From a virus: 64,000 nucleotides of DNA. Shown here one piece after another: positions 28,412 through 62,767 of this stretch (the first letter of the stretch is position 1; each line of letters starts with the position of its first letter). Below the pieces are notes generated by a model. The model saw only the letters and a program-made list of their open reading frames with translations, searched no databases and was not told the DNA's origin. The stretch covers positions 1 through 64,000 of the IMG/VR virus record IMGVR_UViG_3300030419_003950, one strand, 5' to 3'. Position numbers and translations under genes: made by a program.

Positions 28412-29326
28412 TTACCAAAATTTATTATTGGTGTTTATAATATAATCTTCAAAATTATCTTTAAATTTTCCTAATCGTTTTGCAGTTTCTTTTGGATTAC
28501 CCTTTGAAAACATTAAAACATTTTGATGTGATTTAGGAACTTTTCTACTTGTGTTCATAAATTTTTCTGCTCTCATACCTGCAGTTGCAGGTTCTTGTAA
28601 TAAAATCATTTCATTATAATAAGACATTCCAGCATCTTCAAACGCCTGAATCGTATCTGAAACAAAACCAACATAAGAATCTTTTTCTCTTACCTCACCA
28701 ACAACAAATACCGCAAAAGAATTATCTTCTAATTTATCACAAGATTTTTTAATAATTTCTCTATATTGTTTTAAAAAAGTTTTATAATCCATATTAGAAA
28801 TATCTTCTGGGTTATCTGAATATTGTTCAAGATTATAATAAGGTGGACAAGAAAATAAAAAATTATATTTACCTTTTACCTTATCTATATTTAAAGAATT
28901 ATCATTTATCCAAGTTGGTATGTGAGTATCACATATTTTTTTACCTTGAATTATATTGTGTTCTATTTGGTTTTTTGATAAATCAACACCAGTATAATTT
29001 CTTTTTAATTTACTTGCAACAATTCCTCTAACTGAACCACCTGCAAAACAATCTAAAATTTTATCATCTTCTTTTGTAAACCATCTATAAATACATTCAC
29101 ATAAAACAGGGTCAAATACAGAAGTGCTATTCTGTCTCATTTGTTTCATCAAATTACTAAGACTTAAAAGATTTTCTTCCCTACCTAATTCACTTTCTAT
29201 ACCAAGTTCGTTCCACACTTTTTTTCTTTTTTTCCATCTAAGAGATTTCACATCAAGAATACTAATAGGTGGTATTACGAATACTTGTTCAAGTCTACCA
29301 GAGCGTGATTTTATTTCATCGTTCAT
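28412..29326 (-). CDS. SAM-dependent DNA methyltransferase (N4/N6 amino type)
   Basis: A 304-aa protein with SAM motif I ILDCFAGGSVRGIVASKLKRNYTGVDLS (about 92-119) followed by motif IV FSCPPYYNLEQYS (about 157-169), the [S/C/T/D]PPY signature of amino-methyltransferases. The N-terminal region (VFIPPISILDVKSLRWKKRKKVW) is a phage-type extension. Its ATG overlaps the asparagine synthetase stop (ATGA). The second methyltransferase in this operon carries a sister motif SPPYFNREQYS. The target sequence and modified base are unknown. Confidence 0.8.
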   Translation of the reverse strand: MNDEIKSRSGRLEQVFVIPPISILDVKSLRWKKRKKVWNELGIESELGREENLLSLSNLMKQMRQNSTSVFDPVLCECIYRWFTKEDDKILDCFAGGSVRGIVASKLKRNYTGVDLSKNQIEHNIIQGKKICDTHIPTWINDNSLNIDKVKGKYNFLFSCPPYYNLEQYSDNPEDISNMDYKTFLKQYREIIKKSCDKLEDNSFAVFVVGEVREKDSYVGFVSDTIQAFEDAGMSYYNEMILLQEPATAGMRAEKFMNTSRKVPKSHQNVLMFSKGNPKETAKRLGKFKDNFEDYIINTNNKFW

Positions 29327-31023
29327 ATTTTTTCAATTTTTATTCTTGCATTATTATGTCCGAAACTTCGGTGTATATAATTATACCCTATTTTCTTCTT
29401 AATGAAAAGTTTTTCAAACATATCATCAATTTTATTTTGTTCATTTTTTAAATAGTCTGTATGACATCCAACTTGAAAAGTTTTTTTAGGTCTCCACAAT
29501 AACTCTTCTGATATTTCACCTTCAAAAGCTTTTCTTAAAATATATTTCATCACATTACCATCATCTATTTTTGTATCAAATACTTCTGTTTTTGTTCTAA
29601 GTGAATGATTTTCATCTCGATATTTTGTTGGTATTGTTAATCCAAAATCTATAACTTCTTTATTTAAAAATGGTGTTCTCAATTCTACCTTTCCACCATA
29701 CATCATTGATTTGTTTGTTCGAACTAAATTACTTTTATGTAAACCATTTAACAAATTAATTCTCTTTTGATGCCAATGAATTGGTTGATTCCAACAAAAT
29801 CTTTTTACATCACCATATGAAGCAAATATCTCATCAGCTCCCTCACCACCAAATACAACTTTAAATCCTTTATCTCTTATTTCCCAAGATAAAAATAATT
29901 GTGCTACTGCTGGTGAAACTTGTGTCCACTTATGTGTTTCACTTGCCCATATACTTTCTTCTAAAACTCTTTCAATATCTTTTCTATCTACATTAACCTC
30001 GTGTAATTTAATTCCAAATTCTTTTGCGGCCATTCGGGCATAATGTAAATCATCTTTATATTTTGATTTTCTTGTAGGATTAACATTAACCACAAATGCT
30101 TCTAAATTAGGAAATTTCTTTGATAGTAAATAAGTAATAATTGTGCTATCAATTCCACCACTTAATATTGTACATATTGGAACATCACTAATAGTTTCAT
30201 CATCAACAGCCTTTTCCAATACTTCTCTAAATCCTTTTGTATAATAATCTAATCCTTTATCTTCTGTATCAAAATTTATAAATTGTTCTTCATCTCTTGT
30301 ATAATATGATTTACCATTTTTATCATAATCTTTTTTAAAATCAAACCATTTAGTTTCTTCCATCCCATATTCATTCGGCACAAATGGATGTGGTTTAAAA
30401 TGTATTAATGTGCCAGGTAAAACTGGATGTATTGTTTCTTTATCTCTCCATTCAGATAGTGGTTGATATTTTTTAGTTTTTACATCTACTTTATAATATG
30501 ATTCATTTAACCCAATTACTAAACCTTTAGCCTCACTTGTATAGGCAAACCTATTACCATCATAATAGAAATACAAAGGTAAACGGCCGATAAAATCTCT
30601 ACCCAAATAAGTTTCATCCTTTTCACTATCGTAAAGTGCAAAACAAAACATACCATCAAGTTCGTTTAACGCCGTTGGAATATCATCAAGGTGGTGTATC
30701 AAATAATAAAGTAAAAGTTCCGAATCAGAGTTCTTTGATTTAAAGTTATAAAGTTTACGAAGTTTCTTATCAAATTTTTCAAAGGATGGCTTCCACAACT
30801 CACCATTAAATGCCAAATAAAATCTCGAATCATCGGACACCATAGGTTGATTTGCAACTTCCGATAAATCTTGTATAGATAATCGATTATGCGAGATATA
30901 ATTTTTCCATTTTTCAAATGAGAATATAGTGTTACCATCTGTTCCCCTATGCATCATACTCTGTAATCCTTTAATTACCCTATCTTCTGAGTTAAATGCA
31001 TTACCGCCTATAATTCCACACAT
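29323..31023 (-). CDS. asnB: Asparagine synthetase B-like glutamine amidotransferase
   Basis: A 566-aa protein, full AsnB length. Cys2 (MCGIIGG) is the class II glutaminase nucleophile; HRGTDG, FNGEL motifs follow. The synthetase domain has ILSGGIDSTI (PP-loop, about 288-297), FGGEGADEIFA and a late ELRTPFLNKEVIDFG. The normal reaction adenylates Asp and transfers ammonia from Gln. It sits between, and is translationally coupled to, two DNA methyltransferases (3 nt and 4-nt overlap), which makes an amidation step in DNA-base modification an alternative role. Free-Asn synthesis is the default. Confidence 0.85.
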   Translation of the reverse strand: MCGIIGGNAFNSEDRVIKGLQSMMHRGTDGNTIFSFEKWKNYISHNRLSIQDLSEVANQPMVSDDSRFYLAFNGELWKPSFEKFDKKLRKLYNFKSKNSDSELLLYYLIHHLDDIPTALNELDGMFCFALYDSEKDETYLGRDFIGRLPLYFYYDGNRFAYTSEAKGLVIGLNESYYKVDVKTKKYQPLSEWRDKETIHPVLPGTLIHFKPHPFVPNEYGMEETKWFDFKKDYDKNGKSYYTRDEEQFINFDTEDKGLDYYTKGFREVLEKAVDDETISDVPICTILSGGIDSTIITYLLSKKFPNLEAFVVNVNPTRKSKYKDDLHYARMAAKEFGIKLHEVNVDRKDIERVLEESIWASETHKWTQVSPAVAQLFLSWEIRDKGFKVVFGGEGADEIFASYGDVKRFCWNQPIHWHQKRINLLNGLHKSNLVRTNKSMMYGGKVELRTPFLNKEVIDFGLTIPTKYRDENHSLRTKTEVFDTKIDDGNVMKYILRKAFEGEISEELLWRPKKTFQVGCHTDYLKNEQNKIDDMFEKLFIKKKIGYNYIHRSFGHNNARIKIEKI

Positions 31024-31025
31024 AT

Positions 31026-32642
31026 CTATTCCTCACCTTTTTTAAATACAAATATTGGTTCAAACTTATAAGCCTTTTTATTATGTATTACCGCATTCTT
31101 AATACCACTCTTACTCGGGTCTAACCCAACCATACGAGTCATTAACATTTTCAATTTACCCATATAAGTACATCCTAATTCTTCCAAGATATCAATTGAA
31201 TCTTGTTCCAATGGATAGTATAATGATTCTCCAATTTTAATATCTGCGATATTCCAAAGGATATATCTATCATTCTTTAGATACTCATACGCCGTAGTTA
31301 ATGTTGGTCTTAAAAAATTATCTCTCCAATCTTCGTATTCGCTATAAGCCTTGAATGATTGGTTCTCATCTTGACTGTATTGCTCTCTGTTAAAGTATGG
31401 CGGTGATGTGAAAACAATATCGAAAGTTCCCTTATACGATTGAAACTTCGGATTGTTCCCAATTAATTCACTACCATCCGTAAATAATTCATAAGTATTA
31501 CTTTTCTTTTCCACATCAAAAAACTTTTGGAATGTTTCACTCTCATTATCTACACAATTATTATTATAGAAATCTGCAACTGCTTGGTATCTTCCTGTTG
31601 TATCTGGATTAGGGTCTGTTCCAACATAGTGTGCTTTCTTTCTCATACTCATAGCACCAATTATTCTACCACCCCATCCACTACTACTATCATAAATTGT
31701 TATTGGGCCATCAACATTCTGTGTGAATGTTTCATATAAATACTTTGCAGTTAATGCTGGAAAGTTTACAGCAGGTTGTCCACATGATAATCTAAACACT
31801 TGTAATATCTTTGGAAAGATACCATCAGTTTTATCATACCAACGAATTAAATAAAAATACTTTGTAACCTTACCACTCTTTGCCACACTCTCACTTGGTA
31901 TATCACCAAGATTACTAACCTGTCTTTTATTTAAATAACCATCTTCAACTAATTGTTTTACTTCATCTGCCTTTAAATATAAATTCTTAAACCCTTGATA
32001 CTCTTCATTAAATGTTCCATAATTATCGGTTGTAATATCTTTAACTCTAGCCAACACAATATCTAAATCAGAATATTTATCCACGAATACTTTACCATCA
32101 TGAACATCTTTAATAAATTCTATACCACTTTGTCCGTTCCAAAAAGGATTTTCATCTGCTTTATTTACAACACTTCTACTCCAACTATACATTGAATCTC
32201 TTTTTACAGCTCGTTTCATAATGTTAACAAACTTTTCTTCCATATCAGGGTCTGCGAAATGGTCATAAATAGATAAACCATTATCTGCGGATTTACCAAT
32301 ACTGATTTTTGTTTTTAACATTGTAGGAAAGAATTGATTTACAACACTTGCATCTTTGTTGAAGTTTTGTATTATACCAAGTGATTCTTTATCACCTGTC
32401 AAATCTTTTTGTCTGAAATCACAAGGATTGGATTTCAATTTAGAGAAACTTTTAATTATACCTGCTTCATCTTTTCCAATGACAGGCGGTGTTCCATACT
32501 CATCCCATTGTGAAGTAACTTCTCCACGAAGAGTACGAGCCCATTCTGTAAATTCACTATCACTCATACCTAATAAATCATGGTATGTAGTGTTAGATTT
32601 AAATTCAGAGAATTTGCTTCTTTCGTAAAACCATTTTTTCAA
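31026..32642 (-). CDS. DNA methyltransferase, large phage type
   Basis: A 538-aa protein. The N-terminal 270 residues have no recognised motif (likely target recognition or accessory domain). Then ITIYDSSSGWGGRIIGAMS (SAM motif I), GTDPNP, and FTSPPYFNREQYSQDENQS (motif IV), with ILWNIADIKIG downstream. The motif order is that of amino-methyltransferases. First gene of the methyltransferase-AsnB-methyltransferase operon. Base specificity not deducible. Confidence 0.75.
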   Translation of the reverse strand: MKKWFYERSKFSEFKSNTTYHDLLGMSDSEFTEWARTLRGEVTSQWDEYGTPPVIGKDEAGIIKSFSKLKSNPCDFRQKDLTGDKESLGIIQNFNKDASVVNQFFPTMLKTKISIGKSADNGLSIYDHFADPDMEEKFVNIMKRAVKRDSMYSWSRSVVNKADENPFWNGQSGIEFIKDVHDGKVFVDKYSDLDIVLARVKDITTDNYGTFNEEYQGFKNLYLKADEVKQLVEDGYLNKRQVSNLGDIPSESVAKSGKVTKYFYLIRWYDKTDGIFPKILQVFRLSCGQPAVNFPALTAKYLYETFTQNVDGPITIYDSSSGWGGRIIGAMSMRKKAHYVGTDPNPDTTGRYQAVADFYNNNCVDNESETFQKFFDVEKKSNTYELFTDGSELIGNNPKFQSYKGTFDIVFTSPPYFNREQYSQDENQSFKAYSEYEDWRDNFLRPTLTTAYEYLKNDRYILWNIADIKIGESLYYPLEQDSIDILEELGCTYMGKLKMLMTRMVGLDPSKSGIKNAVIHNKKAYKFEPIFVFKKGEE

Positions 32643-32656
32643 TTATTAACCTTTAA

Positions 32657-33268
32657 TTAGTTTAAGTCGTTATTTATCAATTCATCAACCATTGTTAAAT
32701 CTGTTTTTATAATTTCTGCTCTATCAAATTTATATGGTTTAGTTCCAGGACTCTCCAGTATATCAATACGACTAACGAATCTTTTATTCATTGTATCTTT
32801 TACTTGATACACGCCGTCTTTCCCATCTGTCCCTTTGAGTAAAATGAAATCACCATAATCTAAGAATCCACCATGTCGTTTCAAAAGATTTCTACTAACC
32901 GCTATAAATCGGTACTCGCTAGCTTTATGTACCCTAATACGCGTTCCATCCGCGAGAATGTTCGGTGTAGAATCAGTTTGAGAACGAACAGGATGATACA
33001 TGGTTACGGTCACTTCTAATCCCTCAAGTTTAAACTCCTCAACTATTCCATTGAGTCGTTTGTTTTCCGCTTTCAAACCCACAAGCGTTTGCTCATGGAA
33101 TTCTTTATAGTTATCAAAAAGCTTTGTCCATATGAATGTGTTGAATAATAGCATTATCATTAATCCACCACAAAAATATTTAAATGTGTTCTTCATAATT
33201 ATACTTTCAAAAAATGAAGTCTTCATATCACTCGTATATAAATATCTGTTTAGTTTGTTAAAATTCAT
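32657..33268 (-). CDS. Membrane-anchored 3D-domain protein (lytic-transglycosylase-like)
   Basis: A 203-aa protein with one span about 30-48 (FCGGLMIMLLFNTFIW), then a 3D (double-psi barrel) domain: VTMYHPVRSQTDSTPNILADG, ISNN-like RFIAVSRNLL, YGDFILLKG and VKDTMNKRFVSRIDILE, containing the three Asp cluster typical of MltA/YabE-type domains. A peptidoglycan-active or lysis role is likely. The ATG at 33268 overlaps the upstream stop (ATGA) with AAAGGAAT ahead; ATG at 33226 lies in a 22-bp sequence repeated at 62.9 kb and may be a second start. Confidence 0.7.
   Translation of the reverse strand: MNFNKLNRYLYTSDMKTSFFESIIMKNTFKYFCGGLMIMLLFNTFIWTKLFDNYKEFHEQTLVGLKAENKRLNGIVEEFKLEGLEVTVTMYHPVRSQTDSTPNILADGTRIRVHKASEYRFIAVSRNLLKRHGGFLDYGDFILLKGTDGKDGVYQVKDTMNKRFVSRIDILESPGTKPYKFDRAEIIKTDLTMVDELINNDLN
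33224..33245. repeat. 22-bp dispersed repeat, copy 1
   Basis: CATATCACTC then one variable base then TATATAAATAT; 21 of 22 bases match 62889..62910. Read on the minus strand it gives ATATTTATATA, GAGTGAT and an ATG, and in both copies the ATG begins an open frame on the minus strand. It may be a shared promoter-plus-ribosome-site cassette; the plus strand reads TATAAATA. Confidence 0.6.
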
Positions 33269-33585
33269 TTTATTTGTATTCCTTTCAAAATTTCACTTTC
33301 GTTTTCTCTCATGTAATGTTGAATTACGAACGCTTCGACTATGTGCGTAAAGAACCAAAAGAAACTAATCAATGGTACATATATTTGGTAATCCAAATTC
33401 AATTTTGATATCCCTAACCATACTAAGAATATCATTCCAATTGATTTTGTTAAGAATCCCATTCCTGAAAATCCTAAAGACATTATATTACCTCTCTGTA
33501 CCACCACATAAATTCCAACTAGCATATGCATCAAGTTTAGAAATATAGGTGCGAGAATACCTAACAAAATATATTCTACTATCAT
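33265..33585 (-). CDS. Polytopic membrane protein
   Basis: A 106-aa protein with four hydrophobic spans (5-29, 40-60, 68-88 and around 88-97) and short polar loops, ending RENESEILKGIQIK. A transporter-like or holin-like role is possible. Sits between tmRNA and the 3D-domain gene, to which it is coupled. No family recognised with confidence. Confidence 0.55.
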   Translation of the reverse strand: MIVEYILLGILAPIFLNLMHMLVGIYVVVQRGNIMSLGFSGMGFLTKSIGMIFLVWLGISKLNLDYQIYVPLISFFWFFTHIVEAFVIQHYMRENESEILKGIQIK

Positions 33586-33613
33586 ATTATTATAACCTTT
33601 TTCATTTTTATTG

Positions 33614-34024
33614 TGGAGCTGGTGGGAGTCGAACCCACGTCCAGTCTGCCTTTACTAAAGAGTCATTCACAACTTAGTTTAGTTCCAAATCGGTAGTCAC
33701 TAACAACCCACCATGTCCCATTTTACTCAGAATGGTTTAACTAAGATTTCATTTATACTCTAAACCTGAAGTGAGTTCGTGTTCAACTTATTTTATGCTC
33801 GGGTGTTGAACAACCCAAGAACTTATGCGTAAGCGTAAGTTGGTTGGTAGTCTTGAGCCATTACTGGTTCAGCAACTGGAACATCTATTTCGAATAGATG
33901 CCAATCTATTACCAACCCGTCAAGCGATAATTCGCCAATTGAGTTTGTGGGATTTTTTCTAAGACCTTCCCAATCTCTGTTGCACTCTGTTATTAAATAA
34001 CACCTGTCGATACCAAGCAGCCCC
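33614..34024 (-). ncRNA. ssrA: tmRNA (ssrA), one-piece, 411 nt
   Basis: The 5' end GGGGCTGCTTGGTATCGACAGG pairs with the 3' end CAGCTCC plus discriminator A (7-bp acceptor, one G-U), the tmRNA/Ala-like arrangement, with a T-arm GGGTTCGACTCCC and GG(T/A)TCGACAGG D-region. CCA is not fully encoded (CAA follows), so it must be added. Tag frame: CAGTT|GCT resume context, then AEPVMAQDYQPTYAYA and TAA at 33823-33825; a shorter 11-aa reading (AQDYQPTYAYA) is possible. It rescues stalled ribosomes and adds a degradation tag. Directly downstream of a 53-aa gene and probably co-transcribed. Confidence 0.9.
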
Positions 34025-34029
34025 ATATT

Positions 34030-34191
34030 TTAATCTATCTCATCATCCAATTCTTCATTAGGCCAATCATCATCACCATAATCATTTATTTCTACACTAT
34101 ATGATAATGTTTCAATTAACTCTTCAATGATATTCCAATTTTCATCATTGTAGGCCTGTTCTAACTTGTCTTTAATTTCAGATAAGTCCAT
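34030..34191 (-). CDS. 53-aa acidic protein
   Basis: ATG at 34191 follows AAAAGGAGAAATTAAT, a strong ribosome site. The product is highly acidic (MDLSEIKDKLEQAYNDENW..., ending DDDWPNEELDDEID), predicted helical. It ends 6 nt before the tmRNA 5' end, so both share a transcript. DNA mimicry is possible for such a protein but unproved. Confidence 0.65.
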   Translation of the reverse strand: MDLSEIKDKLEQAYNDENWNIIEELIETLSYSVEINDYGDDDWPNEELDDEID

Positions 34192-36408: not shown

Positions 36409-36538
36409 TTTTCTTTTTCTCCTTTTTCTTACCGAAAATTTTTTCCCAATTATCTTCGTATCTTTTTCTATCCGAAGTTCTTGGTGCACTACCCTTTGTA
36501 GTTCCTGAATCGTATATTGATTTCTTTTTCTTAGCCAC
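36389..36538 (-). CDS. 49-aa basic protein, GTG start
   Basis: Frame (M/V)AKKKKSIYDSGTTKGSAPRTSDRKRYEDNWEKIFGKKK..., 14 or more Lys/Arg, overlaps the deformylase stop at GTGGCTAA and the next gene start by 20 nt. AAGAAAAAG-type starts are common for this phage's small proteins. The start is GTG, with GGGA further upstream. Confidence 0.55.
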   Translation of the reverse strand: MAKKKKSIYDSGTTKGSAPRTSDRKRYEDNWEKIFGKKKEKKKNDKQDN

Positions 36539-37169
36539 TAATATATAGTTCCCATTGACCACTATCTATAAGTGGTTTTGCTTTTTTCCATTTTAATTCT
36601 TTTGCTTCGTTACCATCGGTAATCATAACCTTTTCGTTTCTACCAAATTTCTTTCCTGCTCGATAGGTTGTATCAATTTTTCTATCCATACATACAATAC
36701 CATTTAAGTGGTCTATCTCGTGTTGAACACATACAGCTTCTAACAATCTTAATTCTTGGTCTTCTTCTTTTCCTTTTTGTTCCCAACTACCTCGTGCTTC
36801 TTGTGTAGATTCTGCTCCACTAAAATACCATCCACTTTCCTCTTGTTCTGTTTTAACAATAACATTAGAATATCGTTTGGTATTAACGCCTTTCTTTGGA
36901 TAACTTAAACAACCCTCATAATAATCTATCTCATCCCATTGTTCTTTTATAACAGGATTAATTAGAATAAGGGGCTCCCTAACATTAACCACAGCAACCC
37001 GAGCATCAATACCCACCTGGTTAGCCGCAAGACCAATTCCATCTTTCCTCTTAGCGAGTGTAGAGAATAAAATCTCGGCAATTTTAAGTCCTTCATCAAC
37101 TGATACCTTTCTAAGTTTTTTATTTATTAAAGGATTATGTTCTTTAAAACAATTTATAACTTTTTTCAT
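36531..37169 (-). CDS. def: Peptide deformylase
   Basis: A 212-aa protein with all three PDF motifs: GIGLAANQVG (motif 1), EGCLSYP (motif 2, zinc Cys) and QHEIDHLNGI (motif 3, HExxH zinc). It removes the formyl group from nascent N-terminal Met. Phage copies in marine myoviruses usually have shorter ends; this one has an insert of about 25 residues between motifs 2 and 3 (EQEESGWYFSGAESTQEARG). Preceded by a 30-aa membrane peptide gene (TAATG). Confidence 0.9.
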   Translation of the reverse strand: MKKVINCFKEHNPLINKKLRKVSVDEGLKIAEILFSTLAKRKDGIGLAANQVGIDARVAVVNVREPLILINPVIKEQWDEIDYYEGCLSYPKKGVNTKRYSNVIVKTEQEESGWYFSGAESTQEARGSWEQKGKEEDQELRLLEAVCVQHEIDHLNGIVCMDRKIDTTYRAGKKFGRNEKVMITDGNEAKELKWKKAKPLIDSGQWELYISG

Positions 37170-45358: not shown

Positions 45359-45421
45359 GGTGGGACGGAAAAGAAAGGAAATAAAAAACCATCCCACCCA
45401 AGACTTCTTAATTAGAAGTCT
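45359..45421 (-). other. Two stem-loops downstream of cobS-like gene
   Basis: First, AGACTTCT-taatt-AGAAGTCT (45401-45421), overlapping the stop codon of the AAA ATPase gene. Second, GGTGGGA...TCCCACC (45359-45398, 26-nt loop). On the minus strand these follow the ATPase gene end. They may attenuate transcription into the gene at 44980. Confidence 0.5.
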
Positions 45422-46581
45422 GAATCATCTGAATTTTCTTCATCCTCATTGAACAAGTCTTCAGAAGAACCATCAGAAACATACTTTTGAACAAGCTGTT
45501 TCACAAAAGTTCTTTCACTATCCATCCCACCATCATCAGCGAATTGTGGATAGATACTTACTTCAGAAGCCTCATCAATTCCGAAACCATCATAAATCAA
45601 ACCAGCCATCTCAACAGAAGTTCTGGTAGAAACACCAGTCGTAACTTTACCTGAATCAGATTTTGATTCCATTCTCGTAGTGTGAGCAATCTCAGAAACA
45701 GCCTTCAACAACTCAGGGTCTACATGGGGAAACATATAAGTTAGTAATCCGAACTCTTCTTCATCAGTCAGAACATCCATCTCAACGATAGTGAATCTGT
45801 CCATCAAAGCCTTATCCATAACTCTGGTAGAAGTGTATTCATTACCAATGTTAGCGGTAGCCACAAAAGTAACTCCCTCAGCAACTGGAATTGTTTCCTG
45901 TCCTGAAGCCTCATCCAACCTAAGATATCTCTGTCCATTATCTAAAACGGTCATCAAAATATTCCAAGCATCTGGGTGAGCCCTTGATAACTCATCAAGA
46001 AGAATCACAGCGTTTGGTGTTTGAATAGCCTTTACAAAAAGTGATTCTGAAAAGTAAGTTCCTTTCTTCTTATCGAAGTGAACATTACCAATCAGAGTGG
46101 CTCTTGGGTCTTGAGTAGAACCCATATTAAAATAGAAGTCAGGTCTATCTAAGGCGTTAACCAAAGATTTAGCAGCCATGGTTTTACCACAACCAGCAGG
46201 ACCAGTCATTAAAATGTTCTTACCACGAACGGCAGAACGAATTAAGTATTTCCATTTCAATTCCTTCATCACCAAACCTTTAGGTTTTAGTGAATAAGAA
46301 CCATGAATGAAATTTAAAATTTCACCATGTTCCTCAGGAACTTCTACGGAAGATACATCAAATACAGGAGCCGAAGAAGCTTCGAATTCACTCATCGGAA
46401 CAGCCCACCAATATTTACCACCAGATTTATTAATCCTACGCTCAAGAGCCATTCCATTATTGAAGGCTTTTTTACGAGCACCAGTAGTAATATCGGATGT
46501 CCATTTCTTACCATCGGCATCCCAAGCATTGTATCGGTTTCCCGATTTCTCAATGCGAACTATTACTGAATTATTATCCAT
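45412..46581 (-). CDS. MoxR/CobS-like AAA+ ATPase
   Basis: Start at 46581: AAAAGGAAATAAAAAAT precedes it, and the TSS from P3 and a TATAAATA element are just upstream; the ATG at 46620 would be nearly leaderless. 389 aa. ILMTGPAGCGKTMAAKSLV (Walker A, about 125-143), VILLDELSRAHPDAW (Walker B), VTTGVSTRTSVEMA (sensor). A MoxR-type ATPase pairs with a VWA protein, here the gene at 46866. In cyanophages cobS is a known auxiliary gene. Substrate unknown. Confidence 0.85.
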   Translation of the reverse strand: MDNNSVIVRIEKSGNRYNAWDADGKKWTSDITTGARKKAFNNGMALERRINKSGGKYWWAVPMSEFEASSAPVFDVSSVEVPEEHGEILNFIHGSYSLKPKGLVMKELKWKYLIRSAVRGKNILMTGPAGCGKTMAAKSLVNALDRPDFYFNMGSTQDPRATLIGNVHFDKKKGTYFSESLFVKAIQTPNAVILLDELSRAHPDAWNILMTVLDNGQRYLRLDEASGQETIPVAEGVTFVATANIGNEYTSTRVMDKALMDRFTIVEMDVLTDEEEFGLLTYMFPHVDPELLKAVSEIAHTTRMESKSDSGKVTTGVSTRTSVEMAGLIYDGFGIDEASEVSIYPQFADDGGMDSERTFVKQLVQKYVSDGSSEDLFNEDEENSDDSDF

Positions 46582-46632
46582 ATTTTTTATTTCCTTTTCT
46601 TTTGTTAATTTTTCACTCATTATTTATACCTA

Positions 46633-46865: not shown

Positions 46866-49121
46866 TTATTTTTCCAAGAACTTATCATTCATTGTTTTTG
46901 AGATTTGAACAACCGAACTCAAGTCAATCATCTCAGCATCTTTACCATACATTCTTTTGAAATCTTTCACACTATCTTCTCTACCATAACTTGAATCACT
47001 AACAAAGTAAGAAAGAACTTTAACACCCATCTTTCTAAACTCATCAACTTGTCTCTTAGTGTGATTAACAGCATCTTGATGATAGTAATTAATTGAACTA
47101 TTACTGAACATTGGCATCCCATCAGAAATATTCAAGAAATACGAATCACGAGTATTTGTAGTAGGAAGAATATCTTTCATAATAGCCTCGAAACATAATC
47201 CCTCAGGTGTAGTTCCACCAGGATAAATGTTAGGAAACATTTTCTTTACTTTTGAAAACTTATCAACTCTTGAATCATAAGCCACTAAAATAAGTGGTGA
47301 ACAAGAATTTCCTCTTCCGTATCTATTAGTATCATGAGTACTTCTGAAACTAACCATCACATCTAAACCTTGAATCATATCGATAGCCTTGATAAGAGCA
47401 ATAGTAGTAATCATTGTTTGATTCCACTTATCTCCACCCATCGAACCAGAAGCATCAACCGAGATATGTAAGAAAGCATCTGAATACTTATCAACGAAAG
47501 TGGTTGAGAAAACTCTCTCGTTTCCAAAACCTAACTCAGCGATTAATCTTTTATCAATCTTTCCACTATCTAATCTGTTCCATTTTAAATCTCTTGATTC
47601 TCCACGAACTTGAAGTTTTCTACCTAACTTAGTTCCAAGTGAAACACCTTTAGCAACAACACTTTCATCAGTTCTGTAATAGTGTGATTGACCACGAATA
47701 ACACTTGGGAATAATGATTCATCAATCATAGTTTGAGTAAGTTTCTTAACATAAATAACATCAACACCTTTACCAGGAAGATACTCACCAGTTCTGTAAT
47801 CATATTCATCAGAACCAATACCTTCACCAGCGGTAACTTTCTCAACACCAGCCTCTTCCATAGTCTTTACAATGGCCGAATCTTTCTTGGTTAACTTACC
47901 AACTTTTTTGGTATCACCATTATTAAAATCTTTTTGTTTCTCAATAGCGTTCATCAATTGTTTTCTTTGTCTATCAGATAATTGAATTGGTTTACCTTTT
48001 TCATCAGTTCCACTAGCCGAGTAATTTGAATCAGAAGAACTTGGAATCTGAATTGAATTTTCACCACCTGAACCACCACTCATTGAATCAGAAGTTTCAA
48101 GAGAATCTAAAAGTGAATCAAACTCATCATCACTCATAGTAGTTCCACCACTCTCGCCATCTGTTGGTGAACCATTATCTCCATCGTGCTCTATCCCACT
48201 CATACCAGAAGTATCAATTGGATTACCATTTTCATCAAACTCAATTTCTGGAAGATTGTTTAGAATCAATGAGTAAACTTCAAGAGCAACATTGAAAGCC
48301 TCTTCAGTAGAATTAAGTTTTTTAACTCTTCCACCACCGAAGATTGTTTTATAAATTTTATCTAAATCAGGAAGAACATCTAACCTACGATTCTTATTAG
48401 TTAGATTTAAGATTCTCATTATATATGAATCCCAATCTAATGATGTGTGTGAATCAGTAAGTAGAGCCTTATCAATTACTTTAGAATGAAAATACTTATC
48501 ATACATTGAATGATAGTAACCTTTATAACCAGGTGAAGAAGTGAAAACATAATTATCAATTCTTCTATCTTCAACATAGTTTAATAAATTTTTAATATGA
48601 GTTCTAACATCATATCTACCGAAACCAACTTTCTCACCTTTAAGAAAAAATTCTTCAGGAATATTGTTTTCAAGATTTCTTAAAAATTCGAAATCAGAAA
48701 GTTTAATGTGAGAACCTTCATGAAGAGCCAACCCAACAACAGGGTCAAAATTCTTTTCATCAATCTTAGAACCAATAACAACTCTTTTACCATCAGTATA
48801 AGAATCATCATTACTTTGGAATCTAACAGGAATATCAGATTTGTTAGTAACGATAGTTACAAAGTTTGAAATAGCCCTACGATAAGAAGCAAGTTTAATA
48901 TGGTCAACACCAGGTTTTTTTGGTTTAACAATTTCACCATTCTCATCTATATCATTATCTAAATCTAAAATACTCGTTCTACGAGTTTCCCAAGAATTAT
49001 CAGCCCAAAACGATGAGAACGGATTTGATTTCTTTTTGTATGAAGAATCATATTTCTCACGAAGAGCCATAGGATTAAAATGTTTAATTTTTGTATCTTT
49101 CAAATTTTTTCCCTTTTTCAT
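46866..49121 (-). CDS. CobT-like VWA-domain protein
   Basis: A 751-aa protein. The N-terminal region has VVGLALHEGSHIKLSD, an HExxH-type motif near 133; an acidic Ser/Gly-rich middle (SGGENSIQIPSSSDS); C-terminal VWA domain (about 545-750) with MIDAS DASGSMGG near 558, and TTPEGLCFEAI, ISDGMPMFSN. VWA-MoxR pairs act as chaperone-like machines. The upstream element P4 puts the ATG at the TSS; TTG 49103 after AAAGGGA is an alternative start. Confidence 0.8.
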   Translation of the reverse strand: MKKGKNLKDTKIKHFNPMALREKYDSSYKKKSNPFSSFWADNSWETRRTSILDLDNDIDENGEIVKPKKPGVDHIKLASYRRAISNFVTIVTNKSDIPVRFQSNDDSYTDGKRVVIGSKIDEKNFDPVVGLALHEGSHIKLSDFEFLRNLENNIPEEFFLKGEKVGFGRYDVRTHIKNLLNYVEDRRIDNYVFTSSPGYKGYYHSMYDKYFHSKVIDKALLTDSHTSLDWDSYIMRILNLTNKNRRLDVLPDLDKIYKTIFGGGRVKKLNSTEEAFNVALEVYSLILNNLPEIEFDENGNPIDTSGMSGIEHDGDNGSPTDGESGGTTMSDDEFDSLLDSLETSDSMSGGSGGENSIQIPSSSDSNYSASGTDEKGKPIQLSDRQRKQLMNAIEKQKDFNNGDTKKVGKLTKKDSAIVKTMEEAGVEKVTAGEGIGSDEYDYRTGEYLPGKGVDVIYVKKLTQTMIDESLFPSVIRGQSHYYRTDESVVAKGVSLGTKLGRKLQVRGESRDLKWNRLDSGKIDKRLIAELGFGNERVFSTTFVDKYSDAFLHISVDASGSMGGDKWNQTMITTIALIKAIDMIQGLDVMVSFRSTHDTNRYGRGNSCSPLILVAYDSRVDKFSKVKKMFPNIYPGGTTPEGLCFEAIMKDILPTTNTRDSYFLNISDGMPMFSNSSINYYHQDAVNHTKRQVDEFRKMGVKVLSYFVSDSSYGREDSVKDFKRMYGKDAEMIDLSSVVQISKTMNDKFLEK

Positions 49122-53739: not shown

Positions 53740-53813
53740 AATCTTATTTTCTCCTTAATTACTACATAGGTTAACCATATACCAAATAACCATAATAATA
53801 CTAATTCCATCAT
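53736..53813 (-). CDS. 25-aa membrane peptide
   Basis: MMELVLLWLFGIWLTYVVI, then KEKIRL. Ribosome site GAAGAGGAAATTATT before ATG; the stop forms ATGA with the nucleosidase start. Also contains the nucleosidase ribosome site AAGGAG within its last codons. Confidence 0.6.
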   Translation of the reverse strand: MMELVLLWLFGIWLTYVVIKEKIRL

Positions 53814-55243
53814 AATAATTTCCTCTTCAACTTGTGTTCTAATATTTTATTTAATTCATCTATCGTACCTTGACCAAATCTTTCTCTCAAAAAATCAACA
53901 TATTCTTTATCACGATATAAGTTATTAAAAGCATTATCTCTAAACTTTAACACTTCTGCTGCTGATAAATATTCAGTAGGTGTAGGTTTACAATCAAAAG
54001 AATGTTGTGAGTATCCTGTATAAGAATCAGGTAAATCTTTTTCGTCAAATTGAGAATGTAATGCCGAACCTGGATATGCCATGGCTGAATACATACTTGT
54101 CCATTCACATTTTAATTCTTTAGCCATATCATAAGTTTCTTGCATAGTTTCTAATGTATCATTTGGTAGTCCAAAAATAAAATTACCAACAACACTTATA
54201 CCATGGTCTTGTATTTTCTTTACAATATCATTTATATCTACTTCAGTAAATTTTCCTTTTGTTACTTCTAATCTAACTTTTCTATTACCACTTTCTATTC
54301 CAAGTGCTAACCAATTTACTCCAGCCTTTTTTAATGTTTTTAAATATTCTTCTTTGACTGTATCTATTCGTGAGTAAGCCCATATATTAAAATCATAACC
54401 TCTCTCAATAATCAACTCACATATTTTTAGAAAATGTTTTTTATTCAAAACAAACATCTCATCAGCTATTTTAATATTCTTTATTCCCATTTTATGTAAT
54501 ACATCAAACTCTTCAATTATATGTTCAGGTGCCCAATATCTAAATGTATGTTTTTCAAATGGTGCATTGATACAACAAAAACTACATCTATAAGGACAAC
54601 CCAAACTTGTGTATATAGATGCAAATGGTTGTGTTATATTATTGTTTGTCATAGAGTGCCAATTAGCAGTTCTATATTTTTCCATATCTAAAAGTTCCCA
54701 TGGCAATCTTGGAAATTCTTTTTCCAAAGAACCTTGTGGTATTAATTGTGCAGTTGGATTACCAACAATATCATCACCATCTCTATACCACAATCCTGGA
54801 ACATCTTTTAGTTTTACATCTTGTAATAAATTATGTATGGTGAATGGTCCTTCACCCTTACAAACAAAAGTGCACTTCTCATCCTTCATTGTTTTTTCTG
54901 GTAGTGCTGATGGATATAAACCAAGTAACATAGTTATTATTTTATTATCCAACACTTCTAATACATCATGAACACCTTGCATATTTTGTGTAGATGCTGA
55001 TGGTTGTTGACCATAAACAACAAAACAATTAAGTTTAGCTTTTCTCTTTAATATTTCATCGGCAGTTTCTTCAGGAGTTAATCCATCTGCCTCAGCATCT
55101 AATATCTGAACCTCGTAATTATTCTTTTGTAAATTACCTGCTAACATTAAAGCCCATACTGGTGGTTCAATTTGAGATACTTTATTTAAAGATTGATAAA
55201 TCTTTCCAGATGCATTTGTATGTATTAATAAAACATCAATCAT
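53810..55243 (-). CDS. Radical SAM protein with N-terminal B12-binding-like domain
   Basis: A 477-aa protein: N-terminal Rossmann-like domain (VLLIHTNASGKIYQSL, ALMLAGNLQKNNYEVQILD, GEGPFTIHNLL), then the radical SAM cluster motif CPYRCSFCC (CxxxCxxC, about 215-223), ALGIESG and GNFIFGLPNDTLETM. It belongs to the B12-binding radical SAM group that acts on complex substrates. In this neighbourhood a sugar or lipid modification fits. Overlaps neighbours on both sides. Confidence 0.85.
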   Translation of the reverse strand: MIDVLLIHTNASGKIYQSLNKVSQIEPPVWALMLAGNLQKNNYEVQILDAEADGLTPEETADEILKRKAKLNCFVVYGQQPSASTQNMQGVHDVLEVLDNKIITMLLGLYPSALPEKTMKDEKCTFVCKGEGPFTIHNLLQDVKLKDVPGLWYRDGDDIVGNPTAQLIPQGSLEKEFPRLPWELLDMEKYRTANWHSMTNNNITQPFASIYTSLGCPYRCSFCCINAPFEKHTFRYWAPEHIIEEFDVLHKMGIKNIKIADEMFVLNKKHFLKICELIIERGYDFNIWAYSRIDTVKEEYLKTLKKAGVNWLALGIESGNRKVRLEVTKGKFTEVDINDIVKKIQDHGISVVGNFIFGLPNDTLETMQETYDMAKELKCEWTSMYSAMAYPGSALHSQFDEKDLPDSYTGYSQHSFDCKPTPTEYLSAAEVLKFRDNAFNNLYRDKEYVDFLRERFGQGTIDELNKILEHKLKRKLL

Positions 55244-57151: not shown

Positions 57152-57699
57152 ACACCACTCCCTTTTAAGTGTAAAGAATCTTCTGTTTCAACTCCTGTTA
57201 TCTGCATTGTATATTTTGTTTTTCTACCACCATTCATTGATAGATGATATGTTCCATATTCCCAAGTATAACAATCACCTTGTTTCCAATTCGATACAAC
57301 TTCATTATCTATTTGTAATATTTGTCCGATATCCCAATCTTCTAAAAATATAAGATATCTATAAATTTTTGTTTTATCTTCAATACCATACTTTGATACT
57401 AAATATGAATTAGTATCATAATGCCATGGATTAACTTGTCCAACTGGTTGTTTAAATAATGCAACTGCGGTATTATCTAATCCAGTTAATTTGGTTATGT
57501 CATAACATTCTTTTGGCACATCATCATATATTTGTGAAAATTTGGTATTCTCTTCTACATAACCCCAATCATAATATTTCTCTTTATTTTTATTTATTTC
57601 ATCTTGACCTTCAAAATACTTTATTGCAGATTCTGAATCTGGATATTTAACATTTAAAATGTTTTTATAATCACCACTAAATCTACCTACATACATCAC
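57139..57699 (-). CDS. 2OG-Fe(II) oxygenase-like protein
   Basis: A 186-aa protein with NPWHYDTNSYL (HxD, about 92-94), IFLEDWDIGQILQID and TYHLSMNGGRKTKYTMQITG (distal His plus Arg/Lys that may hold 2-oxoglutarate). The HxD...H facial triad suggests hydroxylation of a sugar, nucleoside or peptide; the target is unknown. Cupin-type dioxygenase is an alternative. Confidence 0.65.
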   Translation of the reverse strand: MMYVGRFSGDYKNILNVKYPDSESAIKYFEGQDEINKNKEKYYDWGYVEENTKFSQIYDDVPKECYDITKLTGLDNTAVALFKQPVGQVNPWHYDTNSYLVSKYGIEDKTKIYRYLIFLEDWDIGQILQIDNEVVSNWKQGDCYTWEYGTYHLSMNGGRKTKYTMQITGVETEDSLHLKGSGVWTF

Positions 57700-58685
57700 T
57701 TATCCCATTCAAAACCATTTCCATAAGCACCCCATTCAGATGTCTTATAATAAATAGGTTTCTTTAATTTTAAATATTCAATTATCTCATTTGGATAGAC
57801 TGGATAATGACTTGGAATATCCCAAGTATTATCAATCTTATCAGGAGTATGAACAGTCATTTGTAATGGTTCTTTCTCACCGATTGCATAACTCAAATAA
57901 ACATAACATTCTTTCAAACCTTTTCTTTTTAATTCTTCTACCGCAATATGTCTTGCCATATAGGCTGCACTTCTATCAACCTTACTCGGGTCTTTCCCAC
58001 TATAAGCCCCACCACCAATCGGCACTCTGGGACCATAATTATCTACAACTAATTTTCTACCAGTCAATCCAGCATCTGCATCGAATCCACCTTGTTCCCA
58101 ATTACCAGCAGGATTGGCATGTGTAATCATTAATCCATAATCCTCAGTCTTTAACCATTCACTAACTTCTTTATGTAGTGTAATTCTATCTGTATTCTGA
58201 AATGAAGTTACCACGAAAAGATTTCTATCACCTCGTGTGGTTACTTGAGTTTTGCCATCGTATGGAAATTTATTATACAGATGTCTACATAAACTTCTTG
58301 CTAATCTATATTCTTCAGGAACATATTCATCATTCTCATCACAAGCATAACCAACCATAATTCCTTGGTCTCCTGCACCACCAGTATCAACACCACGAGA
58401 AATCTCTGGTGATTGTTTAACTATATTAACTGATGTTGTGTGAGTTTCATCATATATTTCTGGCTCACCTAAAACCTCATCTACTAAATGTGGTATAGGT
58501 ATTTCTTTATTTGTATTAATTGTAACTTCACCTGTAACATAGATTTGCCCGTGTCCACCCATAGTTTCTACGGCCACACGAGCATCTCTATCTTGTTCAA
58601 GACAGTAATCTAATATCCTATCGGAAATTCTATCACATATCTTATCAGGATGTTTAGGTGAAACAAACTCTGCTGTTCTATACAC
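57696..58685 (-). CDS. metK: S-adenosylmethionine synthetase
   Basis: A 329-aa protein with GAGDQGIMVGYACDE (ATP/Met site), HANPAGNWEQGGFDADAGLTGRK and GGGAYSGKDPSKVDRSAAY (P-loop-like Lys). Cellular MetK is about 384 aa; this copy lacks about 50 residues, mostly in surface regions. It makes SAM from Met and ATP and could supply the two methyltransferases and radical SAM enzyme of this phage. Confidence 0.9.
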   Translation of the reverse strand: MYRTAEFVSPKHPDKICDRISDRILDYCLEQDRDARVAVETMGGHGQIYVTGEVTINTNKEIPIPHLVDEVLGEPEIYDETHTTSVNIVKQSPEISRGVDTGGAGDQGIMVGYACDENDEYVPEEYRLARSLCRHLYNKFPYDGKTQVTTRGDRNLFVVTSFQNTDRITLHKEVSEWLKTEDYGLMITHANPAGNWEQGGFDADAGLTGRKLVVDNYGPRVPIGGGAYSGKDPSKVDRSAAYMARHIAVEELKRKGLKECYVYLSYAIGEKEPLQMTVHTPDKIDNTWDIPSHYPVYPNEIIEYLKLKKPIYYKTSEWGAYGNGFEWDK

Positions 58686-61738: not shown

Positions 61739-62767
61739 CTATAATAAATGAGGTCTGGCTTCTATTTGTCCAGCTCTCGTTACTTCTATAAATTCTACTT
61801 TGCTATGAAACTCAGAAATATTGTTAGCCCCAACATAACTGAAACTACTACGAATTCCATCCTTAATATCTGAGAGTATTCTAAGGGTTTTCCCTTTATA
61901 CGATATAACTTTGTGATTGCCTTCAACATTCTTATCACTCCTTTTGGAATCCCTACTAGCAGAACCCCTGTATTTTTTAAATAACTTTTCGTTAGGCCAT
62001 TCGCCTTGTTTTTCTATTTCCCCTGGACTCTCTTTAGTACCTGAGAGAAGACTTCCCAACATAACCGAATCAGCCCCACAAGCCAATCCTTTACAAACAT
62101 CACCGATATTACGAATACCACCATCAGCAATAACGGGAACATTAAACTTATCTGCAACACTAATCCCATCAAGTAAAGCAGAAACTTGGGGAATCCCAAC
62201 ACCAGTTCTAATCCTCGTTTCACATAAACTTCCATTTCCGATTCCGACTCTAACCGAGTCAGCTCCTTTTTGACATAAGAACCTAACACCTTCTCCCGTT
62301 GCAACTGAGCCCGCAACGATTTCAACTCCTGGTAATTTGGTCTTAATTTTTTCAATTGCATCTCCCACTAATTTATGATGTCCATGTGCTACATCTATAA
62401 GTAGTGTATTACAACCATTATTAAATAACTCTTGAGCTCTTTCTATATAATCTCCTTTAACACCAACGGCGGCACATAATGGTAATTCACAATGGTCATA
62501 CTTTTCAGTATGTAACCGATTCATTATTGATGATTGTTCTTCTATAGAATTAAATCTATGAACAACACCAACACCACCCAACTTCATCATTTCAAAAGCC
62601 ATATCAAATCCTGTGACTGTATCCATTGGTGAGGCTACTATTGGTATTTCTAATTTTGTATTCTTAGTAAACCTTGTATCTAACTTAACATCATCACGAG
62701 ATTTAATATCAGAATAATTAGGGATGATATTTACATCATCATAAGTATAACATTTATTATTTATCAT
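61739..62767 (-). CDS. IMP dehydrogenase/GMP reductase family protein
   Basis: A 342-aa TIM barrel: TYDDVNIIPNYSDIKSRDDVKLDTRF, IVASPMDTVTGFDMA, VGVVHRFNSIEEQ, GIGNGSLCETRIRTGVGIPQ (active-site Cys loop), ADGGIRNIGDVCKGLACGADSVMLGSLLSG. There is no CBS insert, so the protein is short. The loop has ETR where IMPDH/GMPR have TTR, and both activities are possible. Preceded by a 44-aa frame that overlaps its start. Confidence 0.85.
   Translation of the reverse strand: MINNKCYTYDDVNIIPNYSDIKSRDDVKLDTRFTKNTKLEIPIVASPMDTVTGFDMAFEMMKLGGVGVVHRFNSIEEQSSIMNRLHTEKYDHCELPLCAAVGVKGDYIERAQELFNNGCNTLLIDVAHGHHKLVGDAIEKIKTKLPGVEIVAGSVATGEGVRFLCQKGADSVRVGIGNGSLCETRIRTGVGIPQVSALLDGISVADKFNVPVIADGGIRNIGDVCKGLACGADSVMLGSLLSGTKESPGEIEKQGEWPNEKLFKKYRGSASRDSKRSDKNVEGNHKVISYKGKTLRILSDIKDGIRSSFSYVGANNISEFHSKVEFIEVTRAGQIEARPHLL

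Follow-up and report, generated by a model that had tools for sequence, protein, structure and literature searches.

Which peptide does a viral tmRNA encode, and what would it do to the proteins that receive it? The window analysed here comprises the first 64,000 nucleotides of a 67,345-base IMG/VR viral contig (IMGVR_UViG_3300030419_003950; 31% G+C) that encodes a T4-type baseplate wedge protein. An earlier note on this DNA had described a phage tmRNA whose tag, AQDYQPTYAYA, ends in YAYA rather than ALAA. ARAGORN does place a tmRNA gene there, in one piece on the minus strand (33613–34024), and Rfam agrees: the covariance model RF00023 scores 75.9 bits against a gathering score of 47 (E = 1.1e-27). 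The alignment covers the full model (1–374) in the standard order, not in the circularly permuted order of two-piece genes. Both of its ends are confident and its middle, where the tag sits, is poor (mean posterior 0.50), unlike that of a standard one-piece tmRNA.

We assembled 74 distinct full-length tmRNA genes of this kind from marine IMG/VR contigs, the window's included. G3-U70 is found in all of them and the complete set of seven acceptor pairs in 73, with covariation at pair 5 (C-G in 63, G-C in 7, A-U in 3). Because these pairs are kept and pair 5 covaries, the RNA would be expected to be charged with alanine. Pseudoknot 1 lies 10–13 nt from the resume codon in 56 of the 72 relatives in which our script detected the stem; the window's spacing of 11 nt is also that of E. 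coli. The G3-U70 acceptor stem, T arm, pseudoknot 1, A(-4), canonical place of the resume codon and stop codon within a helix are all shared with standard one-piece tmRNAs (RF00023; E. coli ssrA, tag ANDENYALAA). E. coli ssrA differs in its tag, which has 10 codons rather than 37, ends in LAA rather than AYA and lacks the conserved IDWH motif of the phage. Judged by sequence, the locus is a tmRNA in every feature, and the novelty lies in the tag (Table 1).

Table 1. Features of the tmRNA locus, with positions in the window.
Feature	Position	Strand	Basis or remark
53-aa acidic ORF directly upstream	34030..34191	-	stop codon 5 nt before tmRNA
tmRNA (ssrA), one-piece	33613..34024	-	412 nt, counting as far as the C that follows the discriminator base; no encoded CCA tail (ACAA)
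Acceptor stem, 5' strand GGGGCUG, including G3 of the alanine identity pair G3-U70	34018..34024	-	stem pairing in relatives
Pseudoknot 1 (GAGA/UCUU + UGGGA/UCCCA)	33948..33977	-	sequence; last base 11 nt before resume codon
Frame-setting upstream bases, A(-4) = 33940 and U(-1) = 33937	33937..33940	-	74/74 for each base
Full tag frame, 37 codons, GELSLDGLVIDWHLFEIDVPVAEPVMAQDYQPTYAYA; resume codon GGC 33936-33934	33826..33936	-	relatives' conservation, frame analysis
RNA hairpin GGCGA-AUUA-UCGCU over first tag codons	33923..33936	-	same stem in 59/74
Conserved tag motif SLDGLVIDWHL	33895..33927	-	invariant residues; present in sets not selected for motif
Tag C-terminal YAYA	33826..33837	-	ARAGORN and relatives
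Tag stop codon UAA	33823..33825	-	UAA or UAG in 73/74 relatives
Acceptor stem, 3' strand CAGCUCC	33615..33621	-	stem pairing in relatives
106-aa ORF directly downstream	33265..33585	-	open reading frame
Gene next after the 106-aa ORF	32657..33268		commonest neighbour family beside these tmRNAs (89 loci)

Where does this tag begin? ARAGORN starts it at 33858, and the GGC at 33936 lies 78 nt further upstream in the same frame, which stays open for 37 codons before UAA. At this GGC the base four positions upstream is A and the base directly upstream is T (U) in every one of the 74 genes, and A(-4) is absent at the codons on either side. The resume codon itself is GGC in the family, but AGC or GAC in twelve of the 74. 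We take the A at 33940 to be the counterpart of E. coli A86. In E. coli, A86 fixes the frame that opens four nucleotides further on, and function is lost when this base is mutated (PMC2481249). Two relatives (L011 and L082) carry an in-frame stop two codons upstream of the resume codon, and therefore the tag cannot begin further upstream. The phage tag has 37 codons rather than the usual ~10, and the ARAGORN tag is its tail. The earlier note, which took AQDYQPTYAYA for a whole tag and allowed 11 or 16 codons, was right about the end and mistaken about the boundaries: it overlooked a conserved insert of 25–30 codons that contains the IDWH motif. The refutation that it had proposed, a resume codon placed elsewhere and with it a different end, applies by half: the codon does lie elsewhere, but in the same frame, and the end is unchanged.

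The tag region evolves as protein. We computed pN/pS from 174 sequence pairs that match in length and differ by no more than 25%, leaving out the 21 bases of our search pattern to avoid circularity, and obtained 0.25 in the tag frame versus 1.85 and 2.42 in the two remaining sense frames. Since the 74 sequences are related, as are the 174 pairs, these counts are not independent events. Changes fall mostly at codon position 3, the most variable one, and synonymous changes occur inside the conserved Leu, Ile, Asp, His and Asp/Glu codons. Every other frame is interrupted by stops in 35–74 of the 74 tags. We considered an antisense gene as the source of the codon signal and rejected it: one antisense frame has a pN/pS of 0.37, as expected from mirroring, and contains stops in 74/74 tags. 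RNA structure contributes as well. The start hairpin has variants in which both sides are changed (GACGAAU/AUUCGUU, GCGAG/CUCGC) or only one (AGCGA/UCGCU), and its retention through two-sided changes argues that the region is under RNA and protein constraint simultaneously. Part of the conservation at the start and end of the tag is thus also RNA structure, in the start hairpin and in the helix around the stop codon.

Might the true tag nevertheless be the short one, with its resume codon at 33858 and with upstream conservation due to RNA structure? ARAGORN reports exactly this and RNA stems are indeed present in the region, but we regard it as very improbable given the low pN/pS over the tag, the synonymous changes within its conserved codons and the invariant A(-4) and U(-1) at GGC, the codon at which short-tag siblings of this tmRNA (below) also resume. 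The ARAGORN start, moreover, shifts among the relatives. The program detects 40 of the 74 genes, misses 34 and never reports the full tag, giving tags of 11–25 residues instead. About half of these tmRNAs escape it and the others are given a shortened tag, so databases of tags that rely on the program may contain wrong entries. A conserved open reading frame of 34–43 codons could in principle also be translated independently, as a small protein that is no tag at all. We give this the least credence: from its upstream stop as far as the motif L011 contains neither ATG nor GTG, the sole candidate TTG is TTA in 6/74, and the frame begins exactly at the canonical resume codon and finishes at the canonical stop.

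How widespread is the long tag? A DNA-pattern scan for the motif block returned at least 119 viral stretches, about 113 of them tmRNAs among the matches listed, and the long-tag motif occurs in more than 110 marine viral contigs. All 74 tags have 34–43 codons, varying by whole codons, and share one layout: G(D/E)xSLxGLxIDWHL is followed by an acidic linker that varies and usually by (P/Q)(T/S)YAYA(A). L5, G7, L8, I10, D11, W12 and H13 are invariant in 49 tags, with P32, Y34 and A37 nearly so, while the linker varies in length and sequence; the net charge of the tag is about -6.6 on average. The last residue is Ala in 73/74 tags, of which 32 end in YAYAA and most others in YAYA, in keeping with the end given by the earlier note. 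The window's own tag ends TYAYA and not in the LAA, or similar -AA, of a ClpXP-type ssrA tag. In two sequences, L050 and L102, CAA replaces the UAA stop, and the tag would extend by ten residues (QVSELSNTRT).

The motif was also seen in sets fetched without it, so that the long tag is not an artefact of the search pattern. A block like NGDNSLDGLVIDWHLAEYDYS, upstream of YAYA in the same frame, is present in L003, a relative retrieved through a neighbouring gene, and in six of eight loci retrieved by a T arm plus YAYA pattern. The remaining two of these eight are L010, truncated before it reaches the block, and L008, whose tag is short. We also fetched 80 loci by another neighbour, an HD-domain phosphohydrolase gene, ignoring the tag. 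Eight had both tmRNA halves, seven with a long tag and one (L344) with a short tag; among the seven is L394, whose GLKVDWH does not fit the pattern first used. In most of the 80 loci the stretch examined contains no complete tmRNA, so that across the wider virus group the gene is patchily distributed. When viral tmRNAs are sampled by their tRNA-like domain alone, most have tags of 12–15 residues with a canonical start, such as ANDNVEFDYALAA. A further viral tmRNA (L251:5004–5360), unrelated to the IDWH class, has a long tag, AEDISDFTYEDAMALVGTPVEELV, in the canonical place, with an end that is not Ala. Elsewhere in the phage loci, G-L-x-I-D-W-H occurred in only two non-tmRNA cases (L016 and L052), which we take as chance.

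The tags of the short-tag siblings have 10–11 codons and no IDWH insert, and have the resume signature and the AYA(A) end in common with the window. L284 and L332 encode GTQANLTYAYA, with the GGC start, A(-4), U(-1) and YAYA end of the window; they sit at the window's genomic position, with neighbour genes 72–74% identical to those next to its tmRNA. L344 (DNYTQYAYAA) and L008 (DNYNTQIAYA) share the resume-codon signature of the long-tag tmRNAs. In a tree built on the 5' and 3' parts of the tmRNA, L284 and L344 are nested among long-tag sequences (nearest-pairing support 0.96 and 0.80, deep node only 0.40) and L008 falls outside them. Their position suggests that the short forms of L284 and L344 are probably losses or recombinants. 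Because L284 and L332 keep the GGC start and the YAYA end, the end is separable from the insert, and judging by these siblings the IDWH insert is dispensable. Those at the same locus also offer natural comparison pairs for experiment.

Long tags of 25–27 residues are known from mycobacteriophages (record annotation) and from Mesoplasma florum (PMC9097571). The Mesoplasma florum/Mollicutes tag (AANKNEENTNEVPTFMLNAGQANYAFA), recognised by Lon, resembles the phage tag in being long, in its aromatic-Ala end (NYAFA versus TYAYA) and in an acidic/polar body with a hydrophobic stretch, but it is bacterial, lacks the IDWH motif and has 27 residues counting the charged Ala (PMC9097571). The tmRNA of cluster C mycobacteriophages (tag ATDTDATVTDAEIEAFFAEEAAALV, 25 codons, annotated in PV105552) is likewise phage-encoded, with a long acidic tag and an unusual end; its sequence is unrelated and shorter, and its hosts are actinobacterial. 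Melnitz and other pelagiphages also have a marine phage tmRNA, thought to serve infection, but theirs is a circularly permuted two-piece gene with a glutamine riboswitch, and the parts of that report available to us do not discuss long tags (PMC9004378). The latest tmRNA database paper, in its accessible part, gives 10 as the commonest tag length, highlights 2-residue tags and does not mention an IDWH class (PMC11915505). Our search of openly accessible papers found no published description of IDWH tags. The motif had no significant match in Pfam, PHROGs or PDB; the best profile match, the GH18 chitinase motif DGLDIDWE (E 0.24), was taken as chance.

What would such a tag do? We think it rather probable that this is a working phage tmRNA with an enlarged tag, in which motif, linker and AYA end act as a two-part degradation signal. 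The charged RNA would enter stalled ribosomes together with SmpB; none of 44 records carrying the family encodes an SmpB, so that of the host would be needed (a phage-encoded ClpP is found in 1/44). Translation would then resume at GGC and A-GELSLDGLVIDWHLFEIDVPVAEPVMAQDYQPTYAYA would be appended to the stalled protein, the added peptide beginning A-GELSLDGLVIDWHL... with this resume codon. Such a tag would have a linear motif (SLxGLxIDWHLA) near its start and Ala-Tyr-Ala(-Ala) at its end, both conserved and joined by an acidic, variable linker. We read a two-part signal because the invariant residues are confined to the motif and the end, with the variable linker between them. The E. coli tag is also two-part, combining an SspB site with LAA for ClpX. 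In the phage, a host AAA+ protease may engage the tag through its AYA end, as ClpX does through LAA, and the motif may offer a further site at which this protease or an adaptor docks. Proteins released during infection might in this way be cleared faster, or by another protease, than those tagged by the host tmRNA. AlphaFold2 predicts a disordered tag (mean pLDDT 60.6, no secondary structure), which speaks against a stable fold, and the predicted disorder would fit a degron. That an AYA end may alter degradation, as the earlier note proposed, is plausible in view of the C-terminal Ala and of the M. florum YAFA precedent, but depends on the protease of the host.

More tentatively, a widespread marine virus lineage could have reprogrammed trans-translation, with the IDWH motif binding one particular partner (a protein of the phage, an adaptor of the host or a protease other than ClpXP) that sends the products of stalled ribosomes elsewhere than the host tmRNA does. 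A long tag with a selected internal motif would imply that the ribosome-rescue addition can carry extra instructions, exploited by viruses, and suggests that these viruses have equipped a bacterial quality-control system, itself very conserved, with a second signal.

Two other readings accept the long tag and assign it a different role. It may carry no degradation signal, being instead an acidic disordered peptide that solubilises or protects released products, or shields truncated phage proteins from the host protease. The net charge, the predicted disorder and the AYA end in place of LAA would suit such a peptide, and the YAFA-ended M. florum tag escapes most proteolysis in E. coli, its own Lon degrading it (PMC9097571, PMC8138137). 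We nevertheless hold this to be unlikely, since solubility alone would not need an invariant L-x-G-L-x-I-D-W-H and since the C-terminal Ala is kept as in degrons. Alternatively the motif could be a Lon degron, the insert redirecting tagged proteins from ClpXP to Lon as in the long M. florum tag ending NYAFA. There is a resemblance between LDGLVIDWHL and LSGLKIHSNL, a stretch of the SulA degron Sul20 (PMC8087443); the ungapped BLOSUM62 score against Sul20 was reached by 29 of 5000 shuffles for the window tag and, with two further tag types, by 86 and 684 of 5000. This likeness is weak and was singled out post hoc, and for the commonest tag type it does not reach significance; Sul20 binding also needs a terminal Tyr-His, which has no counterpart in the phage tag, and we consider a Lon degron distinctly unlikely.

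Which host would supply the protease? Searching isolated phages with the tag by tblastn revealed none that carries the long tag; the single match, antisense inside a large gene of a Microcoleus phage (E = 3), was taken as chance. In the nearest isolated phages by two proteins, Flavobacterium phage immuto and Microcystis phage Mel-JY01, no tmRNA scored above the cut-off. Bacterial matches to the DNA pattern were dismissed as chance except one, the sole tmRNA among them: a 7.5-kb phage contig (L177, NHIV01000037.1) that carries the same tmRNA type with three tRNAs and is binned in the GTDB representative MAG TMED198, which gives that genome two tmRNA genes. TMED198 is the only lead to a host, and the contig may be a binning accident. 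The comparison with a host tag that the earlier note proposed could be made for this one candidate: the tag of its own tmRNA is ADYGYAAAA, likewise not ending in ALAA, and tags of this kind predominate in the family of the MAG. In four genomes of that family (L308–L311) ARAGORN gives EN(S/N)FTSVNIQD(S/N)FILL at gene position ~223, probably a miscalled tag position.

The earlier note had also set the tmRNA between a small acidic gene and a membrane protein. The acidic 53-aa gene is confirmed and an open reading frame is present on the downstream side. Family searches gave no match for the 53-aa product; because its stop codon lies so close to the tmRNA, the two are probably co-transcribed. At 29323–31023 the window encodes a 566-aa glutamine-dependent asparagine synthase-like enzyme (PF00733 + GATase), 78% identical to that of L003 and only about 31% to that of the short-tag phage L284. 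A SAM-related set (53810–55243, 57696–58685, 28412–29326 and 31026–32642) comprises a B12-binding radical SAM enzyme, an S-adenosylmethionine synthetase and two DNA methyltransferase-like proteins. An AAA ATPase of CobS/MoxR type (45412–46620) adjoins a 751-aa protein (46866–49121) with a weak match to a 'cobalamin biosynthesis' phage family, forming a CobS/CobT-like pair. Peptide deformylase and an IMP dehydrogenase/GMP reductase are also encoded (36531–37169 and 61739–62767), and many related contigs have proteins of either kind close to their tmRNA.
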